Below, piece by piece: positions 1,758 to 19,633 of a stretch of 34,136 bases of DNA (its first letter is position 1; every line of letters begins with the position of its first letter). Made by a program: the position numbers and the translations under genes. This DNA comes from Deferribacteraceae bacterium (GTDB lineage: Bacteria > Chrysiogenota > Deferribacteres > Deferribacterales > JAISNW01), in NCBI GenBank assembly GCA_031256375.1, contig JAIRQX010000065.1, positions 1 through 34,136 of the forward strand. Reading direction: 5' to 3'. The notes under the pieces were generated by a model, which was given only the letters and a program-made list of their open reading frames with translations, searched no databases and had not been told where the DNA came from.

Positions 1758-3005
1758 TTATTTCACAATTTCTGTTTTCACCAACAATCCATTTGCAATA
1801 TAATTGTCGCTTTCGGAAAGTTCTATTGTGTATGTAGTTTGTTTTATGTCAATAAATTCTATATCATCAATTTCCAAGAAGACATTTTTCTCCGGTATAA
1901 AAACTTTGCCGCCAATTTGCAGTTTTTCTACTTTTGTTTTTTGGATATAATGTTTATTTGCCTTTTCTGCATCATCAGCAGCCCAAACATTATTTTCAGT
2001 CCAAAACGGATGGTCTCTAGTTGTAATTATCTCATTGCCGACAAATTTTAATTTCAAAAGATTGGAATGTGTTGAGGAGATTAGTTTTGTAACTTTTGAA
2101 TTTATCAATTTTTTATTTTTAAAATCGTAACTTTTTATCAACTCCCCTTCTTGAATTGATTCGATATTTTTCAGCGAGTTGTCCGACATCAAAATTTTTG
2201 TTCCCGCTCCTAAACAAAGTACATCAAGTCCGTCAAAATAAATTTCAGATATTGCCGTATCGTCATATTTATCACCTTTATAAACTTCGAGAATTTCAAA
2301 TTTTAATGTCCAATTCGGCAATTTATTCAATTCTTCCAAGTTAGTATCTGATTGTTTTCTTCCAAACGGTTCAAATTTAAAAATCTGTTCACGCCGAACA
2401 TCTTTTAAATTTAAAATAGCAAAAGGCTTGCCATCAATATACATTTTAAGTTTTTTCACCCGCGAGTTTTCACGATACGCTTTTTCCGATTTCACATAAC
2501 CGTTTGCAATGATAATTGTTGTAACTCTTGGCGATGATTGTTTGAAAGAATAGGTAACAGACTCCCCTATGCCATAACCTTTTGCCCCTTTTTCACCCGG
2601 AACCCACGCGGTTTGAAAATTCAAATCGTGGATATTTTCCGGCAAATAAGTGATCGTTTTGCTATTTGACTTTAGATATGAAGAGGCGGAAACGCTTTCA
2701 GGTCCTCCGGCATTATACCAACCGTCCCCTCCGCCAAGTACATCCCAATAACTGCCCGAAGTTTCCCAAATACTATATTTTTCAGCAAACTCTTTTTGTT
2801 TTGCGGTTAATTTATCGTATTCCCATCCGGCTTTTACCAAAACATCCATAACTGTTTGATATTCAGTAGCGTCTTTATCATTAAAATCCAACTCTTTTCC
2901 GAGTGTTGGGTTCATTTCCTTTAAATCTGATGCGACAGACGCAGAAACACAAAATAATGCAGACATAAATGCAAGTCCCAAACAAATGCAAAACTTATTA
3001 ATCAT
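1758..3005 (-). CDS. Secreted protein with discoidin-like domain and C-terminal Hint domain
   Basis: The start is set at the ATG of MINKFCICL (3005): it has an AAGGTGAG ribosome site, and an in-frame ATG 16 codons upstream overlaps the -35 box, so it would not be transcribed. Residues 1-26 form a signal peptide ending near ASVAS. Residues about 105-262 resemble the NADase-type glycan-binding (discoidin-like) fold, with LPENIHDLNFQTAW and GIGESVTYSF typical of that group. Residues 264-415 are a Hint/intein-like domain: Cys264 in CLGAGTKI, block-B T329-R-D-H332, and a terminal SDNYIANGLLV. The C-terminal His-Asn of active inteins is replaced by K410-T411. Such proteins occur in periplasmic or surface proteins; a partner cargo is not present here. 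Codon use is more AT-rich than in the core operons, which suggests transfer. Confidence 0.75.
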   Translation of the reverse strand: MINKFCICLGLAFMSALFCVSASVASDLKEMNPTLGKELDFNDKDATEYQTVMDVLVKAGWEYDKLTAKQKEFAEKYSIWETSGSYWDVLGGGDGWYNAGGPESVSASSYLKSNSKTITYLPENIHDLNFQTAWVPGEKGAKGYGIGESVTYSFKQSSPRVTTIIIANGYVKSEKAYRENSRVKKLKMYIDGKPFAILNLKDVRREQIFKFEPFGRKQSDTNLEELNKLPNWTLKFEILEVYKGDKYDDTAISEIYFDGLDVLCLGAGTKILMSDNSLKNIESIQEGELIKSYDFKNKKLINSKVTKLISSTHSNLLKLKFVGNEIITTRDHPFWTENNVWAADDAEKANKHYIQKTKVEKLQIGGKVFIPEKNVFLEIDDIEFIDIKQTTYTIELSESDNYIANGLLVKTEIVK

Positions 3006-3024
3006 TTTACTCACCTTATTTTTA

Positions 3025-3053
3025 AGTTTACCGAAAGGATACGAAAATGTCAA
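3025..3053 (-). promoter_or_regulatory. Sigma70-type promoter of the Hint gene
   Basis: On the minus strand TTGACA (3053-3048) is followed by exactly 17 bases and TAAACT (3030-3025). The predicted start of transcription is near 3018, about a dozen bases before the ATG at 3005. Confidence 0.65.
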
Positions 3054-6699: not shown

Positions 6700-7059
6700 A
6701 TGAGTAAAAACATTCTTATTGTTGACGATGAACCGGATATCCGTATGCTTTTTTCCGATGAACTAAAAGAAGTGGGTTATATCATTCACGAGGCTGCTAA
6801 CAGCAAGGAGTGTTATAAGGTATTGGATGCCGAAAAAATTGACATATGTCTTCTTGATATTAAACTCAAGGATGAAAGCGGTATTGATATACTGCAAACG
6901 ATTACCAGTAATTATCCCGGTGTGCGTACCATTATGTGTACAGCATATAGCGCGTACCAAGACGATTTTGCCACATGGCAGGCGGATGGGTACTGGGTAA
7001 AATCACAGGATATTGACTCACTTAAAGATGAGATATCCAAAGTTTTAAATAAAAAGTAA
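6700..7059 (+). CDS. Single-domain response regulator (CheY-like receiver)
   Basis: A stand-alone phosphoacceptor domain of 119 residues with no output domain. All key residues are present: acidic pair D9-D10, phosphoacceptor D53 in LLDIK, T81 after the fourth strand, and K101. AGGAGGGT is a strong ribosome site. It lies 103 bases before the glycan operon in the same direction and could be cotranscribed with it, although a small TGCCTG/CAGGCA hairpin (7102-7128) lies between them. No histidine kinase is in the window. Roles as phosphate shuttle, chemotaxis-type regulator or partner of an unlinked kinase are all possible. Confidence 0.92.
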   Translation: MSKNILIVDDEPDIRMLFSDELKEVGYIIHEAANSKECYKVLDAEKIDICLLDIKLKDESGIDILQTITSNYPGVRTIMCTAYSAYQDDFATWQADGYWVKSQDIDSLKDEISKVLNKK

Positions 7060-7162: not shown

Positions 7163-9682
7163 ATGAAAGCTGTAGTGATGGCAGGGGGGTTTGGAACAAG
7201 GATACAGCCGCTGACGGCAAGGATGCCGAAACCGATGATCCCGGTGTTTAACCGCCCAATGATGGAGTATATCATACGCTCGCTGAAGGATCTTGGCGTG
7301 TATGATATTATTGTTCTTCTATATTTTAAGCCTGATGTGATAACATCATATTTCGGCGATGGCTCCCATCTTGGTGTGCGTATGCATTATGTCACGCCGG
7401 ATGATGATTTCGGCACCGCAGGGGCTGTTAAAAAGGCGCAACGTTTTTTGGACGAACGTTTTATTGTAGTTTCCGGCGATCTGATCACAGATATAAAACT
7501 CCCTGAAATAGTGAGGTTTCATGAAGTAAAAAAATCCACTGCAACCATTACCCTTACAAGCGTTAGTGATCCGCTCCAGTTCGGAGTGGTTATGGCGGAT
7601 AAAGAGGGGAGAATCCTGCGTTTTCTTGAAAAACCGGGATGGGGTGAGGTGTTTAGCGACACTATTAATACGGGAATATATGTATTGGAGCCGGAAGTTC
7701 TGAATTATATCCCTGAAAACCGCAATTTTGATTTTTCAAAAGACCTTTTCCCCGCCCTTATGTCTAAAGGGATTACGTTATTTGGTTTTAACGCCAAAGG
7801 ATACTGGCGCGATGTGGGCAACCCCGACTCTTACCGCAGTTGTATGAATGATATTACCGAAGGAAAGGTTACGCTCAGCATTCCCGGTAATCTTAATCAG
7901 GTTGACAACGCCGTCTGCTATACGGGGGATAACGTTCATATCGGCAATAATGTGGTCTTCAAGGGGGTTGTGGCAATCGGAAACAACTGTACTCTGCATG
8001 ACGATATTGTTTTGGACGGTGTGGCGCTGGGAGATGGATGTACTGTAGGCAGAGGAAGCCAAATCAGCAAATCTGTAATCTGGGATTGTGTAAAAGTTGG
8101 CGAAGAGTGTAAACTAACAAACTCCGTTCTCTGCTATAACGTTGTTTTGGGCAAAAATGTGGAAAGTTTTCAGGGAGTAATAATAGCGGACAACACCGAA
8201 GTAGGGGACAGGGTGTTGTTTGATAAAGACGTCACCGTATGGCCGGACAAACAGATAGAAAGCGGGTCAATAGTTTCCAGCAGTCTTATCTGGGGAGATA
8301 AGTGGAAAAGTTCTATCTTTGAAGGGGGAAAGGTCGGCGCGCGCACTAATATGGAGTTGTCTCCCGAGATGTCGGCTAAATTGGGCGCGGCATTTGGCTC
8401 CATCCTGCCGAGAGGTGTAAAAGTACTGGTGGGGCGGGATTACCACCGCGCGTCAAGAATGTTGAAACGCGCTTTCTTGGGCGGTTTAATCTCCACGGGG
8501 GTAAACGCTGTTGATCTTAAGATGGAAGCTGTTCCTGTCATGCGTTATAAACTTTCCTCTTTCGGAGAGATGGGCGGGGTTTACTTCCGTCAGCACCATA
8601 TAGATCCTACCCAGACAGAGATACTATTTTTTGATGAACACGGAAACGCTTTGGATTCCGGGATTGAAAAAAATATAGAGAGGATATTTTTCCGGGATAA
8701 TTTTCGCCGCACCCCTCACGATGAGGTGGGTGAAATAGTTGAACATCCGATGGTGCGTGAATTTTACCGTGAAGGAATGCTCAAAATGCTTGATTTGCCT
8801 GTTCTGAATGCGGCGCGCCTGAAAGTTGTGGTAAATCTTATGAACGGAAACACCGCATTACTTCTTCCGGATATTCTTAACAAGATCGGCGCCGAGGCGA
8901 TTATTCTAAACGCCTATCAGGATGAGGCGCGCCTATCGCGCACCTTTTCACAAAAACTTGAAGTTGAACGGCAGACATCCGAGATAACGCGAACGCTGAA
9001 AGCCGATGCGGGCATAGTTGTTTACCCTTCAGGGGAACGTTTTGTACTGCTTACAGATACAGGCGAGGTTGTAAAAGAAGACCGTCTCCTTTTGCTGATG
9101 CTTCTGCTTCTTGACCGCTCCGCCAAGCCGATGAGCCGTGTGTATCTTCCTGTTTATGTTCCGACAGTGATGGACAGCAGTTTCCGCAATATAGAGATAG
9201 TGCGCGGCAAATTTACCGGCATAAAAGCGCACTTTTTACGGGACTTTGCTTTCAGCGGAACGATAAACAACCTGTTTTCTTTTACCGGTCACATGGCTCA
9301 CTATGATGCAATGTTTGCGTCTATCAAACTTCTTGAAATGGCGGCGCGGATAAATGTACCGCTTTCTGAACTTTATAGCCAACTGCCCGATTATAAATAT
9401 TACCATTCGGTAATAAGCTGTCCGCTGGATCTTAAAGGCTACCTGATGCGTAAGATGAGCGAAGAGGCTATGGACAAAGATGCGTCATTTGTTGACGGGG
9501 TTAAAATAACTTATAAACATGACGCGTGGGTGCATATGCTTCCGGATCAGTACTCTCCTAACGTACATCTTTATGTGGAAGGGCTGACGGCGGAGTCGGC
9601 GGATAAATTGCACAGTGAATATGTAACTTTGATTAACCGTTGGATGGGCGGGTACGATAAAAGAAATGCGGAGTTGACATGA
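7163..9682 (+). CDS. Sugar-nucleotidyltransferase / degenerate phosphomannomutase fusion
   Basis: Residues 1 to about 235 form an NTP-sugar transferase with the signature AGGFGTR (8-14) and MPKPM, so this part should make an NDP-sugar from a sugar-1-phosphate. About 240-375 are hexapeptide left-handed beta-helix repeats (GDNVHIGNNV, GDGCTVGRGS). About 380-839 have the phosphoglucomutase/phosphomannomutase fold, but the catalytic TASHNP loop is replaced near residues 475-482 by FRQHHIDP, and the metal-binding DGDxDR loop by a D615-A-G...PSGER segment; mutase activity therefore looks lost. Fusions annotated as mannose-1-phosphate guanylyltransferase with such divergent mutase domains exist in other phyla. 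The ATG at 7163 is chosen over a TTG at 7148 because TCGGAGG lies five bases upstream. It overlaps the next gene by four bases. Its place before the glucan enzymes suggests supply of activated sugar. Confidence 0.85.
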   Translation: MKAVVMAGGFGTRIQPLTARMPKPMIPVFNRPMMEYIIRSLKDLGVYDIIVLLYFKPDVITSYFGDGSHLGVRMHYVTPDDDFGTAGAVKKAQRFLDERFIVVSGDLITDIKLPEIVRFHEVKKSTATITLTSVSDPLQFGVVMADKEGRILRFLEKPGWGEVFSDTINTGIYVLEPEVLNYIPENRNFDFSKDLFPALMSKGITLFGFNAKGYWRDVGNPDSYRSCMNDITEGKVTLSIPGNLNQVDNAVCYTGDNVHIGNNVVFKGVVAIGNNCTLHDDIVLDGVALGDGCTVGRGSQISKSVIWDCVKVGEECKLTNSVLCYNVVLGKNVESFQGVIIADNTEVGDRVLFDKDVTVWPDKQIESGSIVSSSLIWGDKWKSSIFEGGKVGARTNMELSPEMSAKLGAAFGSILPRGVKVLVGRDYHRASRMLKRAFLGGLISTGVNAVDLKMEAVPVMRYKLSSFGEMGGVYFRQHHIDPTQTEILFFDEHGNALDSGIEKNIERIFFRDNFRRTPHDEVGEIVEHPMVREFYREGMLKMLDLPVLNAARLKVVVNLMNGNTALLLPDILNKIGAEAIILNAYQDEARLSRTFSQKLEVERQTSEITRTLKADAGIVVYPSGERFVLLTDTGEVVKEDRLLLLMLLLLDRSAKPMSRVYLPVYVPTVMDSSFRNIEIVRGKFTGIKAHFLRDFAFSGTINNLFSFTGHMAHYDAMFASIKLLEMAARINVPLSELYSQLPDYKYYHSVISCPLDLKGYLMRKMSEEAMDKDASFVDGVKITYKHDAWVHMLPDQYSPNVHLYVEGLTAESADKLHSEYVTLINRWMGGYDKRNAELT

Positions 9683-11787
9683 AATTGTTAAGATTAAGTA
9701 TATTATGGCATATGCATCAGCCATATTATAAAGATGATGCTGACGGTTTGTACTATATGCCTTGGGTATATCTGCACGCTATTAAAGATTACCATGAAAT
9801 GGCAGCCCATGTGGAAAAAGCTTCGGCTTCAGGTAAGGTAAAGGTTACTTTTAACTATGTCCCTTCGCTTTTAATGCAGATGAAAGATTATGAGTCTGTG
9901 AATGTAAGCGATCTTTTTATGTTCTTTCTGCGCAAAGATACGTCAACTTTGAGCGACACGGAAAAACAGGCGCTTGTGCGGCAGCTTGTTATGATCCGGC
10001 AGGAGACAATGGCTTCGGAATTTAAACATTTTGAAAATCTTCTGATTAAAGCCAAAAAAGACCACCGCTTAACGGAGCAGGAATTGAGGGATATGTCTGT
10101 CCTCTACCTTTTGGCGTGGACAGGAACATATATCAGACAGGAAGAACTTCCGGCAACGCTTATCCGTAAAGGGCAAGGTTTTACGGAGGCGGAAAAATTT
10201 GATCTTTTAAATTTTTTAGCAAGTAAAATAGCTTCTATAGTGCCTTTGCACAAAAAACTTGTCTCAAGCGGCGCGGCCGAGATATCTGCGACCCCCGCTT
10301 TTCATCCCATACTGCCGTTGCTGGCGGATTTTACAAGCGCCCGCGAAGCAATGCCCGATGCCCCTATGCCTAATCTCAGCGGCAGTTTTGGCGATGACTG
10401 GAAATGGCATTTGGACGAAGCTATATCTACGCATACTGAGACTTTTGGCGCGCCGCCCGCGGGAATGTGGCCGGCGGAAGGTTCGGTGAGCGAAAAAACT
10501 GCTGATTATTATATGGAACGCGGAATAAAATGGATCGCCACCGATGAAGATATATTGGCGCGCAGCATCGGCGCAAATATTAAAATGTACCCTCAGAGGA
10601 CGTTTTTGTACCGCCAGCACTACCATTTCAAGAAAGATAAAAAACTGTCAGTTTTTTTCAGAGACAAACATTTAAGCGATCTGATAGGTTTTACTTATGC
10701 AAATTGGGACGCTGTGAAGGCGGTGGACAATTTCTTTGAGCATTTGAGAACAATTTACGATTCATGTGATTTCTCCCCTCATGTTTCAGTGATCCTTGAC
10801 GGGGAAAATGCTTGGGAATATTATCCGCACAACGCCTCTTATTTCTTTGAGGAGCTTTATAAAAGATTGGCGCAGACAGATTGGATCACTATGCAGACTA
10901 TGTCGGAGGCGCATGATGATATAGGTAGTAATACCCCAAAAATCCTGCTTCCCCGTATAGCAAGCGGGTCGTGGATATACGGAAACTTTGCTATCTGGTG
11001 CGGTCATCATGAAAAAAACAGAGCATGGGAGCTATTGTCAGCCACCCGCAATAAAATGGTTGACAAACTGGCGCAGCATATATATGAAAAGGATGTACTT
11101 GACAGTTTGTACAGAGAACTCCACGCTGCCGAAGGGAGCGACTGGTTTTGGTGGTATGGGGATGATCATTTTACCACTCAGGCGGATTTGTTTGACAGGC
11201 TGTTCAGAGGACATCTTATAAACATTTACAGAAAATTGGGCGAATATGTGCCCAGAGAACTGTTTGAGCCTATTAAAAGCACGGCTAAGACAGGGCTTTT
11301 GCGAAAACCATCCCTGCCTATATATCCAATATTGGACGGGGAGGCGTCTAACTTTTATGAATGGCTTGGAGCAGGTGAATTTGATCTTTCCTTTGATGAA
11401 GGTTCCATGCACGGCGGCAGCCATATGAAAAAGTTATATTTCGGATACAACGAAGAGAATGTATGTCTCAGGATTAATTGCGGTTCGTCTGACGGTTTTC
11501 CGAACGAATGCACCCTTGAGATAGAGATTGAAGAGTTGGGTTGTACGGCGCTAAAGCTGAGCCGCGGTAAACTTGTTGTAAATGATGGCATTATATGCTG
11601 TATGAATAGTGTTATAGAGATAACAATTCCTCTAAGGAAGTTTTTTTCCGGTGCAAACAGCAGAGGGGTTGTTTTTTATATGAATACGGAAGCGGGAAGC
11701 GCACAGGCGATACAGGAACGGGCGCCCAGATATAATATGGTCAAACTGGAATTGCCGAGCAAAAGCGATGTTGATTGGATAGTATAA
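9679..11787 (+). CDS. GH57 alpha-amylase-like glycoside hydrolase
   Basis: This cytoplasmic enzyme (no signal peptide) of glycoside hydrolase family 57 should cleave or transfer alpha-1,4-glucan by a retaining mechanism. Conserved region 1 is HMHQPYY (H11-P15), region 3 is GMWPAEG with the likely nucleophile E267, and region 4 is LDGENAWE with the likely acid/base D374. The stretch between regions 4 and 5 includes SGSWIYGNFAIW and GSDWFWWYGDDH, typical of the large amylase/amylopullulanase-like subgroup. The final 150 residues look like a beta-sandwich. It is translationally coupled to the preceding gene (ATGA). Its closest role, amylase, pullulanase or glucanotransferase, cannot be fixed from sequence alone. 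Confidence 0.88.
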   Translation: MKLLRLSILWHMHQPYYKDDADGLYYMPWVYLHAIKDYHEMAAHVEKASASGKVKVTFNYVPSLLMQMKDYESVNVSDLFMFFLRKDTSTLSDTEKQALVRQLVMIRQETMASEFKHFENLLIKAKKDHRLTEQELRDMSVLYLLAWTGTYIRQEELPATLIRKGQGFTEAEKFDLLNFLASKIASIVPLHKKLVSSGAAEISATPAFHPILPLLADFTSAREAMPDAPMPNLSGSFGDDWKWHLDEAISTHTETFGAPPAGMWPAEGSVSEKTADYYMERGIKWIATDEDILARSIGANIKMYPQRTFLYRQHYHFKKDKKLSVFFRDKHLSDLIGFTYANWDAVKAVDNFFEHLRTIYDSCDFSPHVSVILDGENAWEYYPHNASYFFEELYKRLAQTDWITMQTMSEAHDDIGSNTPKILLPRIASGSWIYGNFAIWCGHHEKNRAWELLSATRNKMVDKLAQHIYEKDVLDSLYRELHAAEGSDWFWWYGDDHFTTQADLFDRLFRGHLINIYRKLGEYVPRELFEPIKSTAKTGLLRKPSLPIYPILDGEASNFYEWLGAGEFDLSFDEGSMHGGSHMKKLYFGYNEENVCLRINCGSSDGFPNECTLEIEIEELGCTALKLSRGKLVVNDGIICCMNSVIEITIPLRKFFSGANSRGVVFYMNTEAGSAQAIQERAPRYNMVKLELPSKSDVDWIV

Positions 11788-11924: not shown

Positions 11925-13958
11925 ATGTCTTTCCCGTTAATAATAGGTCTTCATTGCCATCAGCCGGTGAATAACTTCAGCAATGTAGTGGATGAAGCTA
12001 TAGCCAAAGGATATATGCCGTTTCTGAAAGAGGCTGAAAATTATCCGTCTTTCCGTTTTTCCATACATTACAGCGGCTGGCTTTTGGAGTATATACGCGT
12101 AAATCACGACCAAACCTTTAAATTGCTGAAAAAATTATCAGACAGGGGGCAGGTTGAGTTTTTCAGCGGCGGGTATTACGAACCGGTACTTTCGGCAATC
12201 CCTCCCGCTGACAGGCGCGGGCAGATAGATATGCTTTCATCTGCGATTAAAAAATATTTCGGTACGCGCCCGACCGGCGTGTGGCTGACGGAGCGCGTCT
12301 GGGATCCGTCTATTCTGCCTGATCTTGCGGCGTGCGGTATTGAAGACCTGATTGTTGATGATTATCATTTTTATGCCGCCGGTTTTTCAGAAACTTCGCT
12401 GACAGGGTATTTCCGCACTGAACATGACGGCAGCGCGATAAATATATTCCCGATAGATCAAACGTTGCGTTACAAAATACCCTTTTCCCTTATGCCTGAA
12501 CTTGTGAGCTATGTAAAAAAAATGAGAGACAGCGGACGGAATATGCTGGTTTGTTTTGATGACGGGGAAAAATTCGGTCTCTGGCCTGAAACTTATGAAT
12601 GGGTATATGAAAAAGGCTGGCTCACAAACTTTATGAATGAAGTAACCTCCAACAGTGAGATAAAAACAAGCCATTTCTCCGATCTGAAAAAAACGCTGAA
12701 ACCGTTGGGTATGGCGTATCTGCCTATTACTTCATATCAGGAGATGGGAGAGTGGTCACTATTTTCCAATCTGCAACAGAATTTCACAGATATGGAAAAA
12801 TTCCTCAAAAATACAAAATACGAACCTTTTGTAAAAAATTTCGTGCGGGGCAGTATCTGGAAAAATTTCTTTGTAAAATACCCTGAGGCGAACCGCATAC
12901 ATAAGCGCACAGTCAACCTGTCAAAACGGGGAAACAGAAAAGACAAAGTTTTCCTTGACTGGCTTTATCGCGCGCAATGCAACGATTGTCTTTGGCATGG
13001 GGTATTCGGCGGTCTGTATTTGCCTAATCTGAGAAACAATGCGTGGAGCGCGGCGATAGAAGCGGAAAAATGTTACGAACTTTTTAAAGGGGATAAATTT
13101 CCTTTGTGGGAAGTAGCTGATACCGATTTGGACGGATATGACGAGGTGTATCTGCGTACAGAGCGGTATAATATGCAATTTGTCAGCCGCGATGGAGGGC
13201 AGCTTTCTACTTTTGAATGTAAAGAACCGGCGTTTAACCTTATGAACACGCTTTCCCGCAGACCTGAAGGCTATCACAGTATGTTTTTTGAAGAACCTGA
13301 GGATAAGAAAGAGGAAAATATCGAAGGGGTCGCTACAATTCACGAACGAAAACTGGTAATACCTCCCGGGCTTAAAGAAAAGATCGGATATGACTGGTAC
13401 AACCGTAATTCATTTATAGATCATTTTGTTGACAGCTACGATACTGCGGGATTTGTGCAGGGAACTTTTACGGAGCGGGGTGATTTTGTAAACCAGCCAT
13501 TCAGTACTGAAGTAACGGACGGCGGGGCAGAGTTTAAGCGTCATGGCGGCGTTTACCATGAAAATGAAAAAATTTCCTGTGTACTGACAAAAAAATATTC
13601 TGTCACCCCAAAGGGGATAAATTGTATAACCAAAGCTAACGGCGGTGATTTTGGTTGGTATGTGCAGGAGCATAACTTTAGTTTTGCCGACCCGGAAGCG
13701 GTAACTATAAATGGAAACCCTTATAAAGACGGCATGAATTTTTACGGAAAGGAGATGTCGGTTTTTGACCCTTATACAGGATGTAAGTTACACTGGAAAT
13801 GGGATAAAGAAATGTCTATATTTATATTCAGTGTGAACACTGTCTCGCAGTCAGTGGAGTGTATGGAGCTGACTGTGCAGGGAGTTTGTTTTCTTGCTGC
13901 TTTTAAGCGGGAGGGTTCGTTTACGCTGAATACGCAGCTGGATGTATTGTGGAGGTAA
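11925..13958 (+). CDS. GH57 4-alpha-glucanotransferase
   Basis: The sequence matches the Thermococcus-type 4-alpha-glucanotransferase group of GH57 (family knowledge: nucleophile E123, acid/base D214). Here region 1 is HCHQPV (14-19), region 3 GVWLTERVWDP places Glu exactly at residue 123, and region 4 CFDDGEKFGLWP places the Asp pair at 212-213. Length (677) fits the group. C-terminal residues from about 400 form the associated beta-sandwich (DUF1925/1926-type). No signal peptide is present, so it acts in the cytoplasm, shuffling alpha-1,4-glucan segments during glycogen synthesis or breakdown. A GGGGGTG ribosome site lies six bases before the ATG. Three bases separate its stop from galT. 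Confidence 0.93.
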   Translation: MSFPLIIGLHCHQPVNNFSNVVDEAIAKGYMPFLKEAENYPSFRFSIHYSGWLLEYIRVNHDQTFKLLKKLSDRGQVEFFSGGYYEPVLSAIPPADRRGQIDMLSSAIKKYFGTRPTGVWLTERVWDPSILPDLAACGIEDLIVDDYHFYAAGFSETSLTGYFRTEHDGSAINIFPIDQTLRYKIPFSLMPELVSYVKKMRDSGRNMLVCFDDGEKFGLWPETYEWVYEKGWLTNFMNEVTSNSEIKTSHFSDLKKTLKPLGMAYLPITSYQEMGEWSLFSNLQQNFTDMEKFLKNTKYEPFVKNFVRGSIWKNFFVKYPEANRIHKRTVNLSKRGNRKDKVFLDWLYRAQCNDCLWHGVFGGLYLPNLRNNAWSAAIEAEKCYELFKGDKFPLWEVADTDLDGYDEVYLRTERYNMQFVSRDGGQLSTFECKEPAFNLMNTLSRRPEGYHSMFFEEPEDKKEENIEGVATIHERKLVIPPGLKEKIGYDWYNRNSFIDHFVDSYDTAGFVQGTFTERGDFVNQPFSTEVTDGGAEFKRHGGVYHENEKISCVLTKKYSVTPKGINCITKANGGDFGWYVQEHNFSFADPEAVTINGNPYKDGMNFYGKEMSVFDPYTGCKLHWKWDKEMSIFIFSVNTVSQSVECMELTVQGVCFLAAFKREGSFTLNTQLDVLWR

Positions 13959-13961
13959 CCA

Positions 13962-14972
13962 ATGTCTGAACTGCGCAAAGATCCTTTGACAAATTGTTGG
14001 ACTGTTATGGCGCCGGAACGTAAAGGGCATCCCGGTGATTTTGTCGAACACATGGATATTCCTCAAACACATAATGTTTGCCCTTTTTGTCCCGGCAATG
14101 AAGCGCTGACCCCGCGCGAACTACTCAGCGCTGTGGAATACAACCGGTGGCAGCTTAGAGTCTTCCCGAACAAATATCCTATTTTTCGTGTTGAAGGGGA
14201 ATTAATAAAACGGGGCAAAGGTTTTTACGATACCATAAACGGGATCGGCGCCCATGAAATTATTGTTTACACAGAAAAACATACCAGACTTATGCATGAG
14301 CATGATATGATGCTCTTCGCCCGTTATTTCGGCGCGGTGAAAGCGCGTATGAACGATCTTTGTAAAGATATCCGTTTTGCCTATTTGCAGTTTTTTCAAA
14401 ACCATGGTTATCATAGCGGGGCTACCCTTGTGCATCCTCACGGTCAGCTTTTGGCGCTGCCTGTAATTCCTGACGCTTCCGTTCAGGTATTTGAAAATAC
14501 CCGCGCTTATTATAAACGTCACAAAAGATGCCTTATTTGTGATATTATTGATGGAGAGCGGGCGGATAAAAACCGTATTGTTTTTGAAAACAGCGATTTT
14601 GTGGCTATCTGTCCTTATGCCGCGTCTTCCCCGTTTGATATATGTGTGTATCCTAAGGTACACAACCATGATTTTATGGGAATATCAGACACCTTGTTGT
14701 TACGTTTGGGAGATATAATGGCAGAATGCTTTATGCGTCTGAGCAAAATATTAAACGAACCGGATTTTCAGCTTTTTATCCATACATCTCCTACTCCGTC
14801 AGTTATAGCGTCTGAGCCTGTCTATTCCCGTATAGCTTTATATTATCACTGGCGGATCATGATAACTCCTAAAATTTCCCGTCTGGCGGGCACAGAAAGA
14901 GGTTTAGGTTTTTTTGTTAATACAGTTTTACCTGAAGAATCAGCTGAGCTTCTGCGAGAGGTTAGCTTATGA
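13962..14972 (+). CDS. galT: Galactose-1-phosphate uridylyltransferase family
   Basis: A histidine-triad nucleotidyltransferase. The active-site motif H158-P-H160-G-Q is intact, with His160 the expected nucleophile; CPFC (Cys40, Cys43) gives the usual metal site, and a second CLIC pair occurs near residue 185. Length (336) is normal. The ribosome site GGAGG lies within the end of the previous gene, and the stop overlaps the next start (ATGA). No galK, galE or galactosidase is present in the window. In this glucan setting the substrate may be glucose-1-phosphate or ADP/UDP-glucose rather than galactose-1-phosphate; that is inference from neighbours. Confidence 0.88.
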   Translation: MSELRKDPLTNCWTVMAPERKGHPGDFVEHMDIPQTHNVCPFCPGNEALTPRELLSAVEYNRWQLRVFPNKYPIFRVEGELIKRGKGFYDTINGIGAHEIIVYTEKHTRLMHEHDMMLFARYFGAVKARMNDLCKDIRFAYLQFFQNHGYHSGATLVHPHGQLLALPVIPDASVQVFENTRAYYKRHKRCLICDIIDGERADKNRIVFENSDFVAICPYAASSPFDICVYPKVHNHDFMGISDTLLLRLGDIMAECFMRLSKILNEPDFQLFIHTSPTPSVIASEPVYSRIALYYHWRIMITPKISRLAGTERGLGFFVNTVLPEESAELLREVSL

Positions 14973-16420
14973 AGATTGCTCAGATTACACCCGAAATATA
15001 TCCGTTCAGTGCGCTTGACAGACGTGGATATAACCAGCTTCGGTCAAATATTCTGTTGCTTTCTCAGAATTTGGCGTTGCATGGTCATGAAGTTTTTGTA
15101 TTTACGCCGCTTTATGGTTCCATTGACAAGCAGGAGCACGGACTGAATATTACAGATCATAAAACATGGGTGAGTGTGAGCGGTAAGATTGTAGAGTTTG
15201 AAATATACGAAAAAGAAATGGATGGCATATACTTCTATTTTTTCAGCAACAGCGGATTATTTGACCGCAATGGCGTCTATGGTTACGGCAATATTGATTT
15301 CACAGATAACGAAATACGTTTCGGGGCATTTTGTCAGGCGTGTTTAAATTTTATAAACACAAACATTCCTGATATGCATATAATGCATTCCCACAACTGG
15401 CCGGCAGCCCTAATTCCCACTTATAAAAGCTACCGTTATCCTAAGATGAAATGTAAAACAGTGCTGACTATACACGATCTGGCAGTGCAGGGGATTTTTA
15501 ACAGATTCAGTATGGAAACGCTTAGTTTACCGTGGGATATGTACACTATGGAATGTCTTGAATATTATGATAATATTAATATTCTTAAAGGAGGGATAGT
15601 ATACGCTAACGCTGTAATAGCTCTGAACGTTCTGCAGGCGGAGTCTTTTCTTATGCATGATACAGGTTTTGGACTGGACGGGGTTTTTCGCCGGCATCAG
15701 AATAAACTTGTAACTATAGCTAACGGTATAGACAGCAAAAGCTGGGATCCTCTTACTGATGCCTATTTGGATGAGCGGTATAACTGGAGTTCATTAGGAA
15801 AGCGTAAGATCAATAAGGTAAAGTTTTGCGAAAGGTTCTCTTTAGATAATGAAAAACCGCTCTTTTGTGTCATAAACCGTTATGTATCAAAGGAAGGGAT
15901 AGATATTGTTTTAAAAACTCTGCCATCCATAATGAAAAACGATATGCGCCTTTTTCTTTATGGTCGCGGTGAAGAACCGTATGTTGACAAGCTTTTTGAA
16001 CAGCAGCGGGTGTATGAAAATATCCGGGTTGTAAAGGACAATGATCCGGCAATTTTTCACAACATACTGGCTTCGGCAGACTTTATAGTGATCACAAGCG
16101 GAACTCCCTCAATGGAGAAAGAGCGCAGACTTGCTATGCGATATGGGGCAATCCCGATTATCAGAGGTTATGTAGATATATGTGATACAACAAGAACTGC
16201 AAAAAATGAAGTAATAGGGTTTAAAAACCTTGATGATTTTGAATTGGCTTTACAAAAAGCCATAAGCTTTTATTATGATAAAGAAAATAAAGACAGGCAT
16301 ATATCAGAAATCATGCAATGTGATAATTCATGGGATTTTACAGCAAAGGAGCATGAGGAGCTTTATTATGGCCTGATAAATTCGCGTAAGCAGAATAATT
16401 TATGGGGGTACAGCAAATGA
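14969..16420 (+). CDS. GT5 glycogen/starch-synthase-like protein, signature residues lost
   Basis: The overall pattern is that of glycosyltransferase family 5: MKIAQITPEIYPF start, HSHNWPAAL, TIHDLAVQGIF, INILKGGIVYA, ANGIDSKSWDP followed by TD...L...Y and K..NK. The three hallmark sites are altered, however. The ADP-glucose-binding KxGGL is absent (residues 14-22 read SALDRRGYN), the RLxxQKG loop is NRYVSKEG (303-310) with Glu at the Lys position, and the EPCG catalytic segment near 380-393 reads PSMEKERRLAMRYG. Normal length (483) and an intact frame argue against a simple pseudogene. It may be a regulatory or scaffold pseudoenzyme, or use a different donor. It overlaps genes on both sides by four bases, so it is translated with the operon. 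Confidence 0.8.
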   Translation: MKIAQITPEIYPFSALDRRGYNQLRSNILLLSQNLALHGHEVFVFTPLYGSIDKQEHGLNITDHKTWVSVSGKIVEFEIYEKEMDGIYFYFFSNSGLFDRNGVYGYGNIDFTDNEIRFGAFCQACLNFINTNIPDMHIMHSHNWPAALIPTYKSYRYPKMKCKTVLTIHDLAVQGIFNRFSMETLSLPWDMYTMECLEYYDNINILKGGIVYANAVIALNVLQAESFLMHDTGFGLDGVFRRHQNKLVTIANGIDSKSWDPLTDAYLDERYNWSSLGKRKINKVKFCERFSLDNEKPLFCVINRYVSKEGIDIVLKTLPSIMKNDMRLFLYGRGEEPYVDKLFEQQRVYENIRVVKDNDPAIFHNILASADFIVITSGTPSMEKERRLAMRYGAIPIIRGYVDICDTTRTAKNEVIGFKNLDDFELALQKAISFYYDKENKDRHISEIMQCDNSWDFTAKEHEELYYGLINSRKQNNLWGYSK

Positions 16421-17154
16421 AACTTGAAAGTATGACAAAAAAAGAATTGAATGATTTAGCCAAAAAACATGATATTAAACGGCGTTCAGTTATGACTAAA
16501 CCGGAACTCATAAAGGCAATCAATGATGTTATGAAAAAATCGGGAGTACAGAAACTAAAACAGAAAACTCCTGCGGTAGGGTACGAGGCGGCTACAAAGC
16601 CGTTGCCGGTATTAAAGGCAAAAACCCCTGAACCGATTCCCAGTTATTATGTAGCGCCTTATTACCATCAGGATATTATTTTCTTCCTTCCTGTTTCTCC
16701 CGGCTCGGAATATGTTTACTGGGAGGTATCGCCTGATACGGATAACAGACTGAAAAATAACCTTGAATTGGAAAAATGCCAATATGAACTCAGAATACAC
16801 TGTAAAGACAAAACAGGGCAGCAAATGCTTGCGCACTGTTCAGTTTCTTCCAGAGGAGATTATTATTTCGGGTTATGGGCTCCGCTGAAGACACTATGGG
16901 CAGAGCTTGGCGTATGGGATAAACATGGACGTTTTCATTCAGTTATGAATTCCGCTTATATCATAATGCCGTCTGATGTGGTATCCAACAATGTAGATAC
17001 AGAATGGATGATGATAACGGATAGTTGGGAAAATGTTTACAAATTGTCGGGAGTGGATGAGACAAAATACAGCGGGGGAGCGTCAATGCCAGATCATATA
17101 GTACGCAGAATAAGGGAGTTTACGGAATCATCTTTCCAGGGAGATAAGCGCTAA
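16417..17154 (+). CDS. DUF4912 protein with N-terminal SAP/Rho-N-like helix pair
   Basis: Residues 1 to about 40 (MTKKELNDLAKKHDI...TKPELIKAI) resemble the SAP/Rho-N helix-extended-loop-helix module seen in some nucleic-acid-binding proteins. About 70-200 fit the DUF4912 pattern, with PYYHQDIIFFLPVSPG, a YVYWEVSP strand and GLWAPLKTLWAELGVWD. DUF4912 proteins often sit beside GH57 branching enzymes. The fold and role are unknown to me; a carbohydrate-binding-like beta domain is possible. The start at 16417 is chosen because GGGGG lies eight bases upstream and it gives the four-base ATGA overlap used across this operon; the in-frame ATG at 16402 has no ribosome site. The stop overlaps the branching-enzyme start by one base. 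Confidence 0.75.
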   Translation: MKLESMTKKELNDLAKKHDIKRRSVMTKPELIKAINDVMKKSGVQKLKQKTPAVGYEAATKPLPVLKAKTPEPIPSYYVAPYYHQDIIFFLPVSPGSEYVYWEVSPDTDNRLKNNLELEKCQYELRIHCKDKTGQQMLAHCSVSSRGDYYFGLWAPLKTLWAELGVWDKHGRFHSVMNSAYIIMPSDVVSNNVDTEWMMITDSWENVYKLSGVDETKYSGGASMPDHIVRRIREFTESSFQGDKR

Positions 17155-18731
17155 TGAACGGTTTTTGGGCGCTCGTACTGCACTCTCATCTGCCGTATAT
17201 ACATCATCCCAGCTATGAATATTTCCTTGAAGAACACTGGCTATTCGAGGCGATATCAGAGACGTATATACCGCTGCTTATAACATTAAGAGAGCTTGAG
17301 CAGGAAAATGTTTACACACGCATTACCGTATCTGTGACTCCCCCTCTTGCGGAAATGCTGGATAATAAAAATCTGAACCGGAAATACCTGAATTATCTCG
17401 ACAAACTTATAGAGTTAGCTGAGAAAGAGAAGGTGCGTACAAAAGACGACCCGTATTTTTCACCGCTGGCAAATATGTATTACGAACGGTTCCACAAGCT
17501 GAAAGCGTTTTTGCAAAACGATCTGCATGGACGGGTTTTAAACGGCTACAGAGAGTTTCAGGAAAAAGGGATGTTATGTATAATAACTTGCGGGGCAACT
17601 CACGGTTTTCTCCCTTTTATGACAGAAATTGCCGCGCGTGCGCAGATTGAAATCGCTTGCAGGGTACACCAGAAGCATTTCGGCAGACGACCTGAAGGGA
17701 TCTGGCTTCCAGAATGCGCCTACAGCGCCGGTATTGATAAACTGCTTTCCGATGCGGGAATAAAATTTTTCTTTGTGGATTCCCACGGTATTCTGTATGC
17801 CGATCCGCGACCCAGATACGGCACCTATTCGCCGGTGTTTACCTCTAACGGCGTAGCCGCTTTCGCAAGAGATTATTATTCATCCAAGCAAGTCTGGAGT
17901 TCTAAAGAGGGCTATCCCGGAGATCAATGTTACCGTGATTTTTACCGTGATATAGGTTACGATTTGGATATGGAATACATCGCTCCGTATATCAGTCCTA
18001 ACGGTGAAAGGGTTTTTACAGGGATAAAGTACCATAAAATCACAGGGGAATCCAGTTATAAAGAGGCGTATCATCATGACGCGGCTATGGCGCGCACTAA
18101 AGATCACGCCGCGCATTTTGCGCACGAACGCGAGAAGCAGACAGACGATGTTGCGCCTTATTTTGACAGACCGCCTCTGATAGTTTCCCCTTACGACGCT
18201 GAATTATTCGGTCATTGGTGGTTTGAAGGTCCGGAGTTTATAGGGAACATTTTTCGGGAGATGCAGCAGCGCGGGCATAAAGTGCGTCCGGTGAATCCTC
18301 TTGAATATTTGCATCAATTTCCTATGAATCAGGTGGTACAGGTAAATCCTTCGTCGTGGGGAGACAACGGTTTTTACAGCGTATGGCTGAATGCGGGTAA
18401 TGACTGGATTTATAGGCATTTAAGGTTTATGGCGGAACATATTACAACATTGGCGCGTAAATACAGAGATACAGGTAATGGAGATATAATACGCGGTCTT
18501 AATCAGATGGCGCGGGAACTTCTGTTGGCACAGGCGAGCGATTGGGCGTTTTTGATTACCACCGGCACTGCTACCAGTTACTCTGTCCAGCGCACAAAGG
18601 AACATATATCAAACTTTATGAAGATTTATGGGATGGTGGAGGATGGCAGATTTGACTGGGAGTTTTTCACAACAACGGAGATGAAGAACGATTTTTACCC
18701 TGAGATGGATTTTCGTGTGTTTGCTGGATAA
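17154..18731 (+). CDS. GH57 1,4-alpha-glucan branching enzyme
   Basis: This enzyme forms alpha-1,6 branches in glycogen by intramolecular or intermolecular transfer. The signature regions fit the Thermococcus-type GH57 branching enzyme (E183, D354 in that protein): region 1 LHSHLPYI (9-16), region 3 GIWLPECAY with Glu187, region 4 SPYDAELFGHWWFEGPEF with Asp348. The C-terminal helical part (from about 425), with a QASDWAF motif, is the family's DUF1957 domain. Length (525) is typical. No signal peptide. It starts inside the stop codon of the DUF4912 gene, so the two are coupled. It is the only branching enzyme visible. Confidence 0.95.
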   Translation: MNGFWALVLHSHLPYIHHPSYEYFLEEHWLFEAISETYIPLLITLRELEQENVYTRITVSVTPPLAEMLDNKNLNRKYLNYLDKLIELAEKEKVRTKDDPYFSPLANMYYERFHKLKAFLQNDLHGRVLNGYREFQEKGMLCIITCGATHGFLPFMTEIAARAQIEIACRVHQKHFGRRPEGIWLPECAYSAGIDKLLSDAGIKFFFVDSHGILYADPRPRYGTYSPVFTSNGVAAFARDYYSSKQVWSSKEGYPGDQCYRDFYRDIGYDLDMEYIAPYISPNGERVFTGIKYHKITGESSYKEAYHHDAAMARTKDHAAHFAHEREKQTDDVAPYFDRPPLIVSPYDAELFGHWWFEGPEFIGNIFREMQQRGHKVRPVNPLEYLHQFPMNQVVQVNPSSWGDNGFYSVWLNAGNDWIYRHLRFMAEHITTLARKYRDTGNGDIIRGLNQMARELLLAQASDWAFLITTGTATSYSVQRTKEHISNFMKIYGMVEDGRFDWEFFTTTEMKNDFYPEMDFRVFAG

Positions 18732-18754: not shown

Positions 18755-19633
18755 ATGAGTAAAAAATCTGTAATAATGTTACTGGTTTTTATTGTTCTGG
18801 CAGCTGTTGGGATATTTTTAGCGAATGAAGCAAAACGGCTGTCTTTAATGGATGTATTGGCGAATTTGTTTCATAAAGGGAAAAGTATTCAGAAGATCGG
18901 AGGGCTGGATGATCTTTTTAAAGGTTCCGCGTCCGATTTTAGGGGCGTCTCTGATCCTGCGCAAGATCCTCTTTTTGTAGCCGCGCGGTCAGGTACAGCT
19001 TCCGAAGTACTCGCCGCCTTGGGAAAAGGTTCGCCGGACGTGCAGGATTGGACAGGGTTGACGCCTCTGATGTATGCGGCGCGCAGAAATAAAATGGATA
19101 CCGCGAAAATACTTGTTGACAACGGCGCCGGACTTAATATTCAGGATGTGAAAGGTTATTCCGCTTTAATGTATAGCGCCGAGTCCGCTGCAGATGAGGT
19201 AAGCAGTTATCTTCTGAAAAGCGGGGCAAACCCGAATATTCACGCTTCCAGCGGCGATACGGCGCTTTCAATAGCTGCTTTTACGGGAAGGACTGCACAG
19301 CTCAGCGATCTTTTGAACAGAAACGCTGATGTTAATAGTAAAAATTCATCCGGTGTAACCCCTCTTATGTTTGCCGCGATGAACGGCAACCCTGAAGCTG
19401 TAAACATATTGATCCGCCGGAATGCGCAGGTAAACGCGGCGGATCACAATGGTTTTACCCCTCTGCTGTATGCGGCTGAATATGGAAATGCCGAAGCGGT
19501 CAGACTGCTTATAACGGCAGGGGCTGATATTACTGCCCGCGACAGAATGGGGATGACAGCTATTTATCACGCCAGACGTAATAACCACCGCAATGTAGTA
19601 GATTTTTTAACAGATTCCGGCGCTCCGGAATAA
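18755..19633 (+). CDS. Membrane-anchored ankyrin-repeat protein
   Basis: Residues about 5-23 form one hydrophobic segment after MSKK, likely an uncleaved N-terminal anchor. From about residue 68 to the end there are seven ankyrin repeats of about 33 residues (recurrent TPLMYAA, GADxNxxD, TALSIAA patterns). These repeats bind other proteins. No enzymatic domain is present. It lies 23 bases after the branching-enzyme gene in the same direction, possibly the last gene of that operon, but no clear ribosome site precedes the ATG. A perfect ATAACC-GGA-GGTTAT palindrome (19631-19645) follows the stop and may end transcription. The partner is unknown. Confidence 0.88.
   Translation: MSKKSVIMLLVFIVLAAVGIFLANEAKRLSLMDVLANLFHKGKSIQKIGGLDDLFKGSASDFRGVSDPAQDPLFVAARSGTASEVLAALGKGSPDVQDWTGLTPLMYAARRNKMDTAKILVDNGAGLNIQDVKGYSALMYSAESAADEVSSYLLKSGANPNIHASSGDTALSIAAFTGRTAQLSDLLNRNADVNSKNSSGVTPLMFAAMNGNPEAVNILIRRNAQVNAADHNGFTPLLYAAEYGNAEAVRLLITAGADITARDRMGMTAIYHARRNNHRNVVDFLTDSGAPE

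Follow-up and report, generated by a model that had tools for sequence, protein, structure and literature searches.

A glycogen synthase homologue with lost catalytic residues in a Deferribacterota GH57 operon, probably retained for a non-enzymatic role in glucan association or regulation

The closest described systems to the protein analysed here are bacterial glycogen synthase (GlgA), represented by the enzymes of Escherichia coli and Agrobacterium tumefaciens, and plant STARCH SYNTHASE 5 (SS5). The structure of the E. coli glycogen synthase (GS) mutant E377A with bound ADP and an acceptor analogue (PDB 3COP) fits a catalytic role of Glu377. SS5 is a noncanonical, nonenzymatic starch synthase that binds MRC and takes part in granule initiation, and its mutants have fewer starch granules (PMC10801857). 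A non-enzymatic synthase homologue that affects granule number is known from plants; in the open-access literature searched, we found neither a description of an inactive bacterial GlgA nor a bacterial counterpart of SS5.

Here we analysed a stretch of 34,136 nucleotides (hereafter the window) from a gut bacterium (phylum Deferribacterota) whose genome is a MAG assembled in 128 contigs (G000). At positions 14969–16420 the forward strand encodes a glycogen synthase homologue of 483 aa with the GT5 fold and lost catalytic residues (hereafter GT5p), and its 483 codons are uninterrupted. The profile of the GT5 N-terminal domain, PF08323, matched GT5p with an E value of 3.3e-43 and 148.6 bits (cut-off 22.7), and the glgA subfamily profile TIGR02095 gave 307.4 bits, slightly below its cut-off of 328.45. 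The sequence also matched A. tumefaciens glycogen synthase (1rzu) with an E value of 1.1e-47. Consistently, the AlphaFold (AF2) model of GT5p is a two-domain GT-B structure with both Rossmann domains retained (pLDDT 89.1, pTM 0.88). The TM score of the model was 0.87–0.88 to 1rzu and 0.82 to 2qzs, and its top 17 PDB structure matches were all glycogen or starch synthases. Low confidence in the model is confined to the C-terminal tail and to the former donor loops, at residues 18–21 (pLDDT <50) and 402–412. For comparison, we used 46 Deferribacterales genomes, with families labelled f1–f7, of which f1 is the family of the window, f6 comprises Mucispirillum and kin, and f5 and f6 are related families of f1.

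The active site was examined residue by residue with E. coli GlgA (Ec) as the residue reference and 112 canonical sequences as background. A sequence-only reading of this DNA had claimed that three catalytic signatures of GT5p are replaced, and for the motifs themselves the claim stood. KxGGL is absent from the former donor loop (residues 14–26, positions 15008–15046): residues 9–28 read EIYPFSALDRRGYNQLRSNI, a five-residue insertion lengthens the loop, and Lys15, Gly17, Gly18 and Asp21 (Ec) are replaced by Ala15, Asn22, Gln23 and Ser26, respectively. The RLxxQKG motif reads NRYVSKEG (residues 303–310, positions 15875–15898), in which one pyrophosphate ligand is kept (Arg300(Ec), Arg304 in GT5p) and the other, Lys305(Ec), is Glu309. 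The EPCG loop reads PSMEKERR (residues 380–387, positions 16106–16129). Because the alignment is gap-free from Ser374(Ec), which is Ser377, to Tyr389(Ec), which is Tyr392, the catalytic Glu377 corresponds to Pro380; Cys379-Gly380-Leu381 (Ec) are Met-Glu-Lys, with Glu383 in place of Gly380. In addition, Tyr355(Ec) is Asn and Gly399-Gly400 (Ec) are Val-Asp. In the His161-Asn162 motif, the His is kept as His169 and the Asn is Asp170, a position occupied by Asp or Ser in every eroded copy that covers it. Within the donor site, however, His161, Asn246 and Arg300 (Ec numbering) survive in GT5p. A structure-guided search for an intact catalytic Lys or Glu elsewhere in the protein, which could have overturned the sequence-only reading, found none.

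Most of the altered positions contact ADP or glucose in SSIV, GBSS and E. coli GS (PMC6086201; PMC7137382). Among 75 outgroup GT5s, the positions altered in GT5p were canonical in 71–75 sequences, except for the naturally variable Tyr355 and Leu381. Conservation of Lys305 (74/75), Glu377 (74/75) and Lys15 (71/75) in this outgroup excludes chance as the source of the changes in GT5p. With Glu377 and Lys305 missing together, the residues argue strongly that synthase activity of GT5p is very unlikely.

GT5p is located in an operon on the forward strand with the syntenic order nucleotidyltransferase/mutase fusion, GH57, GH57 transferase, GalT-like, GT5, DUF4912 and GH57 branching enzyme, and this order holds wherever contigs are long enough. 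The operon comprises a nucleotidyltransferase-LbH-phosphohexomutase fusion (7166–9682; Pfam and synteny), a GH57 glycoside hydrolase (9679–11787; Pfam), a GH57 4-alpha-glucanotransferase-type enzyme (11925–13958; Pfam), the GalT-like protein (13962–14972), GT5p, a Rho_N and DUF4912 protein (16417–17154) and, as the last syntenic gene, a GH57 branching enzyme (17154–18731; profile search and synteny). A response-regulator receiver protein lies upstream at 6700–7059 (Pfam), and its gene is the syntenic upstream gene in f5/f6. As first proposed from the letters, the intact frame of GT5p is joined to both neighbours by ATGA overlaps, with galT at 14969–14972 (TTATGAAG) and with the DUF4912 gene at 16417–16420 (AAATGAAAC); the downstream overlap is conditional on a DUF4912 start at 16417, which is favoured by relatives beginning with MKLxxLTKKEL. 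Immediately after the operon, an ankyrin-repeat protein is encoded at 18755–19633, with no match in the scanned neighbourhoods of relatives. Elsewhere in the window, the reverse strand carries a 431-aa ORF at 1758–3053, the C-terminal part of which looks Hint/intein-like by eye (CLGAGTKILMSDNS...).

The nearest PDB entries of the GalT-like protein are the Arabidopsis structures 1z84 (E value 9e-58) and 2h39 (2e-56), whereas the true GalT 1hxp matched with only 2e-15. We take the two Arabidopsis structures to be ADP-glucose phosphorylase, and by analogy the GalT-like protein may be a source or consumer of ADP-glucose. No canonical glgC scored above the TIGR02091 cut-off in 15 genomes; in most of them, including that of the window, the best match to the glgC profile was the nucleotidyltransferase-LbH-phosphohexomutase fusion. 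The DUF4912 protein has an N-terminal Rho_N domain, a poor AF2 model (pLDDT 67, pTM 0.46) and a core with weak FN3-like fold matches. It was considered as an obligate partner of GT5p and rejected: the protein persists in f2 without a GT5, indicating that it is independent of GT5.

The sequence-only reading had expected a synthase elsewhere in the genome, and one was found. The single other GT5 gene of this genome (G000:C103:13191–14624) has intact KSGGL, RFAEQKG and EPCG motifs and scores 533.5 bits with TIGR02095. Two GT5 genes were present in 29 of the 46 genomes, the operon copy only in six, the second copy only in four and none in seven; all seven genomes without a GT5 also lacked the GH57 branching enzyme, that is, the pathway is missing. 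The operon copy was canonical at the donor site in all six genomes where it is the sole GT5 (f3, f4 and f7) and donor-site-altered in all 29 two-copy genomes, Mucispirillum included. Second-copy GlgA was canonical at the contact positions in 31 of 31 sequences examined.

The extent and kind of substitutions vary among the operon copies of the 28 two-copy genomes tabulated for the donor site; the 29th, G034, has similar residues around an in-frame stop. Operon copies of f5a have Gln or Lys at position 15 and Phe379, those of f5b have Arg15, Met/Ile18 and Lys300, those of f6 have Tyr/Asn/Ser/Gly15, Ser18, mostly Lys300 and often Arg305, and those of f1 have Glu or Met at 305 and Pro377. Glu377 is present in nearly all f5/f6 copies, and the copy of one genome (G025) still has Lys15, Arg300, Lys305 and Glu377. 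An independent MAG of the same family (G002; Deferribacteraceae, JAITWF01) carries the only same-family homologue of GT5p, a 220-residue fragment ending at the contig end, which reads NRYLRKMG and HPFMGRDRR and so has Met at 305 and Pro at 377. The prediction that orthologues would carry the same changes was therefore borne out in the window's own family by the shared Pro377 and missing Lys305, and in the related families by donor-site alteration of every two-copy operon copy.

Loss of the gene was also observed. In the four second-copy-only genomes, the operon has no GT5 gene wherever it was examined. At the f2 loci L171, L172, L173 and L186, the GalT-like gene adjoins the DUF4912 gene, the GT5 between them is missing, and a canonical GlgA is found elsewhere. 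The operon GT5 of G034 (L052:8658–10097) has a single in-frame TAA at residue ~255, near the domain boundary, and the remainder is conserved with G032. The f2 operons and this in-frame TAA indicate that the operon copy is dispensable in some lineages.

In the phylogenetic tree, the operon copies formed one clade (SH-aLRT 89, below the starred level), the eroded operon copies formed a subclade (SH-aLRT 98), and the second copies clustered with Campylobacterota sequences with support of 100. We rejected the possibility that the operon copy is a duplicate of the second GlgA, as an AU test was against joining the eroded and second copies (p = 2.5e-183) and synteny was also against it. The simplest reading would be that a native operon GlgA was joined by an acquired GlgA and that the native copy then lost catalysis or the whole gene. 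Given a single, monophyletic eroded clade, few independent events underlie the association of a second copy with an eroded operon copy. Individual residue losses in the eroded copies appear largely parallel, and many would have followed the meeting of the two copies, because G025 retains the four residues named above. Among the Campylobacterota, the loci L088, L090, L095, L096, L105 and L119 carry neighbouring GT5 pairs, both canonical.

The view of GT5p as a conserved pseudoenzyme, also put forward in the sequence-only reading, agrees with purifying selection on the donor-site-altered operon copies of related families. For close f5/f6 pairs of eroded copies, dN/dS was 0.036–0.095, and the wider pair G016–G022 gave 0.153; the active copies gave 0.005–0.075. 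Such low values indicate that the eroded copies of f5/f6 are functional proteins and not relics. The evidence for selection is that of the f5/f6 pairs, and in the window's family the operon copies of G000 and G002 share 44% identity over 220 residues with saturated synonymous sites, which precludes dN/dS for the window. Simulated neutral drift of 0.1 substitutions per site broke the GT5p frame in every one of 300 trials.

Present-day decay of a functionless operon copy, made redundant by the arrival of the second GlgA, is unlikely. The f2 operons and the nonsense codon of G034 would be expected of such a relic, as would the faster evolution of operon copies, which are 44% identical between G000 and G002 where the active copies are 66% identical. 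However, the frame is uninterrupted in 28 of 29 two-copy genomes (that of G002 being cut by the contig end), the slot in the operon is identical wherever the context is visible, and the predicted fold of GT5p is intact. Together with dN/dS, the simulated frame breakage makes a relic a weak explanation for f5/f6 and a less tested one for f1.

Persistence of sugar transfer, with another donor or another catalytic arrangement, is distinctly improbable. GT5p retains Arg300, His161 and Asn246, and since nearly all f5/f6 copies have Glu377, some activity is possible in those relatives. Against this, GT5p has Pro for Glu377 and Glu for both Lys305 and Gly380, has lost the KxGGL loop and the Gly399-Gly400 turn, and is predicted with low confidence at both donor loops. 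Moreover, the donor residues lost are not the same from lineage to lineage, a pattern closer to relaxed catalysis than to a new specificity held in common. Use of another donor is unlikely for GT5p and possible for some of its relatives. Finally, misalignment, misassembly or a sequencing error mimicking the losses is scarcely credible even in an assembly of 128 contigs, since the frame is uninterrupted, losses at the same site are graded across the related families, misalignment of the EPCG loop is ruled out by the gap-free stretch between the conserved Ser377 and Tyr392, and Pro377 with a non-Lys305 recurs in the independent MAG G002, which refutes such an error in the main.

We favour the reading, with a probability of about two in three, that GT5p is a GT5 paralogue without catalytic activity, which persists after GlgA displacement as a non-enzymatic subunit that is glucan-associated or regulatory; that it is inactive, binds glucan, has a partner and acts in regulation is what we infer from the data above. 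In the ancestral state, the operon gene would have been the single active GlgA of the Deferribacterales GH57 glycogen operon. Another GlgA, nearest to Campylobacterota enzymes, would have entered the ancestor of several families, and catalysis would have passed to it. In each lineage, parallel loss of donor-site residues from the operon copy could then have followed, with the deepest erosion in the window's family, where Glu377 and Lys305 are both gone, and the eroded copy would have been kept as a folded, non-enzymatic part of the glycogen machinery. It may bind alpha-glucan through the surviving acceptor-side residues Glu9, Tyr104 and Trp144 (Ec 9, 96 and 138), and would serve the active GlgA or the co-expressed GH57 enzymes as a putative subunit for glucan docking or regulation, like plant SS5 in starch granule initiation.

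In a small, post hoc comparison of donor and acceptor positions, the acceptor contacts Glu9, the aromatic residue at 96 and Trp138 were kept in every eroded group covering them, whereas only one of 15 donor positions (His161) was always kept across the eroded groups; the acceptor positions Asp137 and Tyr165 (Ec) are changed in GT5p. This retention pattern favours a protein that would still touch glucan and no longer handle nucleotide sugar. The proposed docking or regulatory function draws on this pattern and on the operon setting, with its three GH57 enzymes and the GalT-like protein. A shared new motif in the eroded copies was also considered and rejected: only D110, P188, Y192, I203 and N351 (window numbering) were distinctive, that is, conserved in eroded copies and uncommon in canonical GT5s, and five positions are too few to define an interface. 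The broader proposal, to which we give even odds, is that the native GlgA was repurposed in three Deferribacterota families, Mucispirillum included, as a non-enzymatic partner, glucan-docking or allosteric, of the new GlgA or of the GH57 branching/transferase enzymes, in convergence with SS5.

Within one order and one operon, these genomes present a series in which the synthase gene is a canonical single copy, partly eroded under selection, fully eroded or missing, which allows the roles of a glycogen synthase beyond catalysis to be examined directly. The annotation "glycogen synthase" for the operon gene in Mucispirillum and relatives should accordingly not be read as implying an active enzyme.

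Compared with the GlgA of E. coli and A. tumefaciens (PF08323/TIGR02095), GT5p shares full-length homology, the GT-B fold, length and an alpha-glucan operon, but lacks K15, G18, D21, K305, E377 and G380 and scores 307 against 328 bits with TIGR02095. The operon GlgA of single-GT5 Deferribacterales (f3, f4 and f7) is the syntenic orthologue of GT5p and its sister group in the tree; unlike GT5p, it has intact catalytic residues and is the sole GT5 of its genome. An independently degenerate GT5 is found beside a canonical GlgA in one Planctomycetota MAG (G046; L151:10001–11443, equal to L192; also L191), where it reads RRTPLAE, RFDADSG and NPGNA; it belongs to a separate lineage and was seen in one genome. 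Like SS5, GT5p would be an inactive GT5-family protein kept beside active synthases, although SS5 is a plant protein of granule initiation acting with MRC and is not orthologous to GT5p, which has both Rossmann domains in its model and lies in a bacterial GH57 operon. By analogy, and with no claim of membership, plant SS5 is the best-known functional precedent for the way in which GT5p may work.
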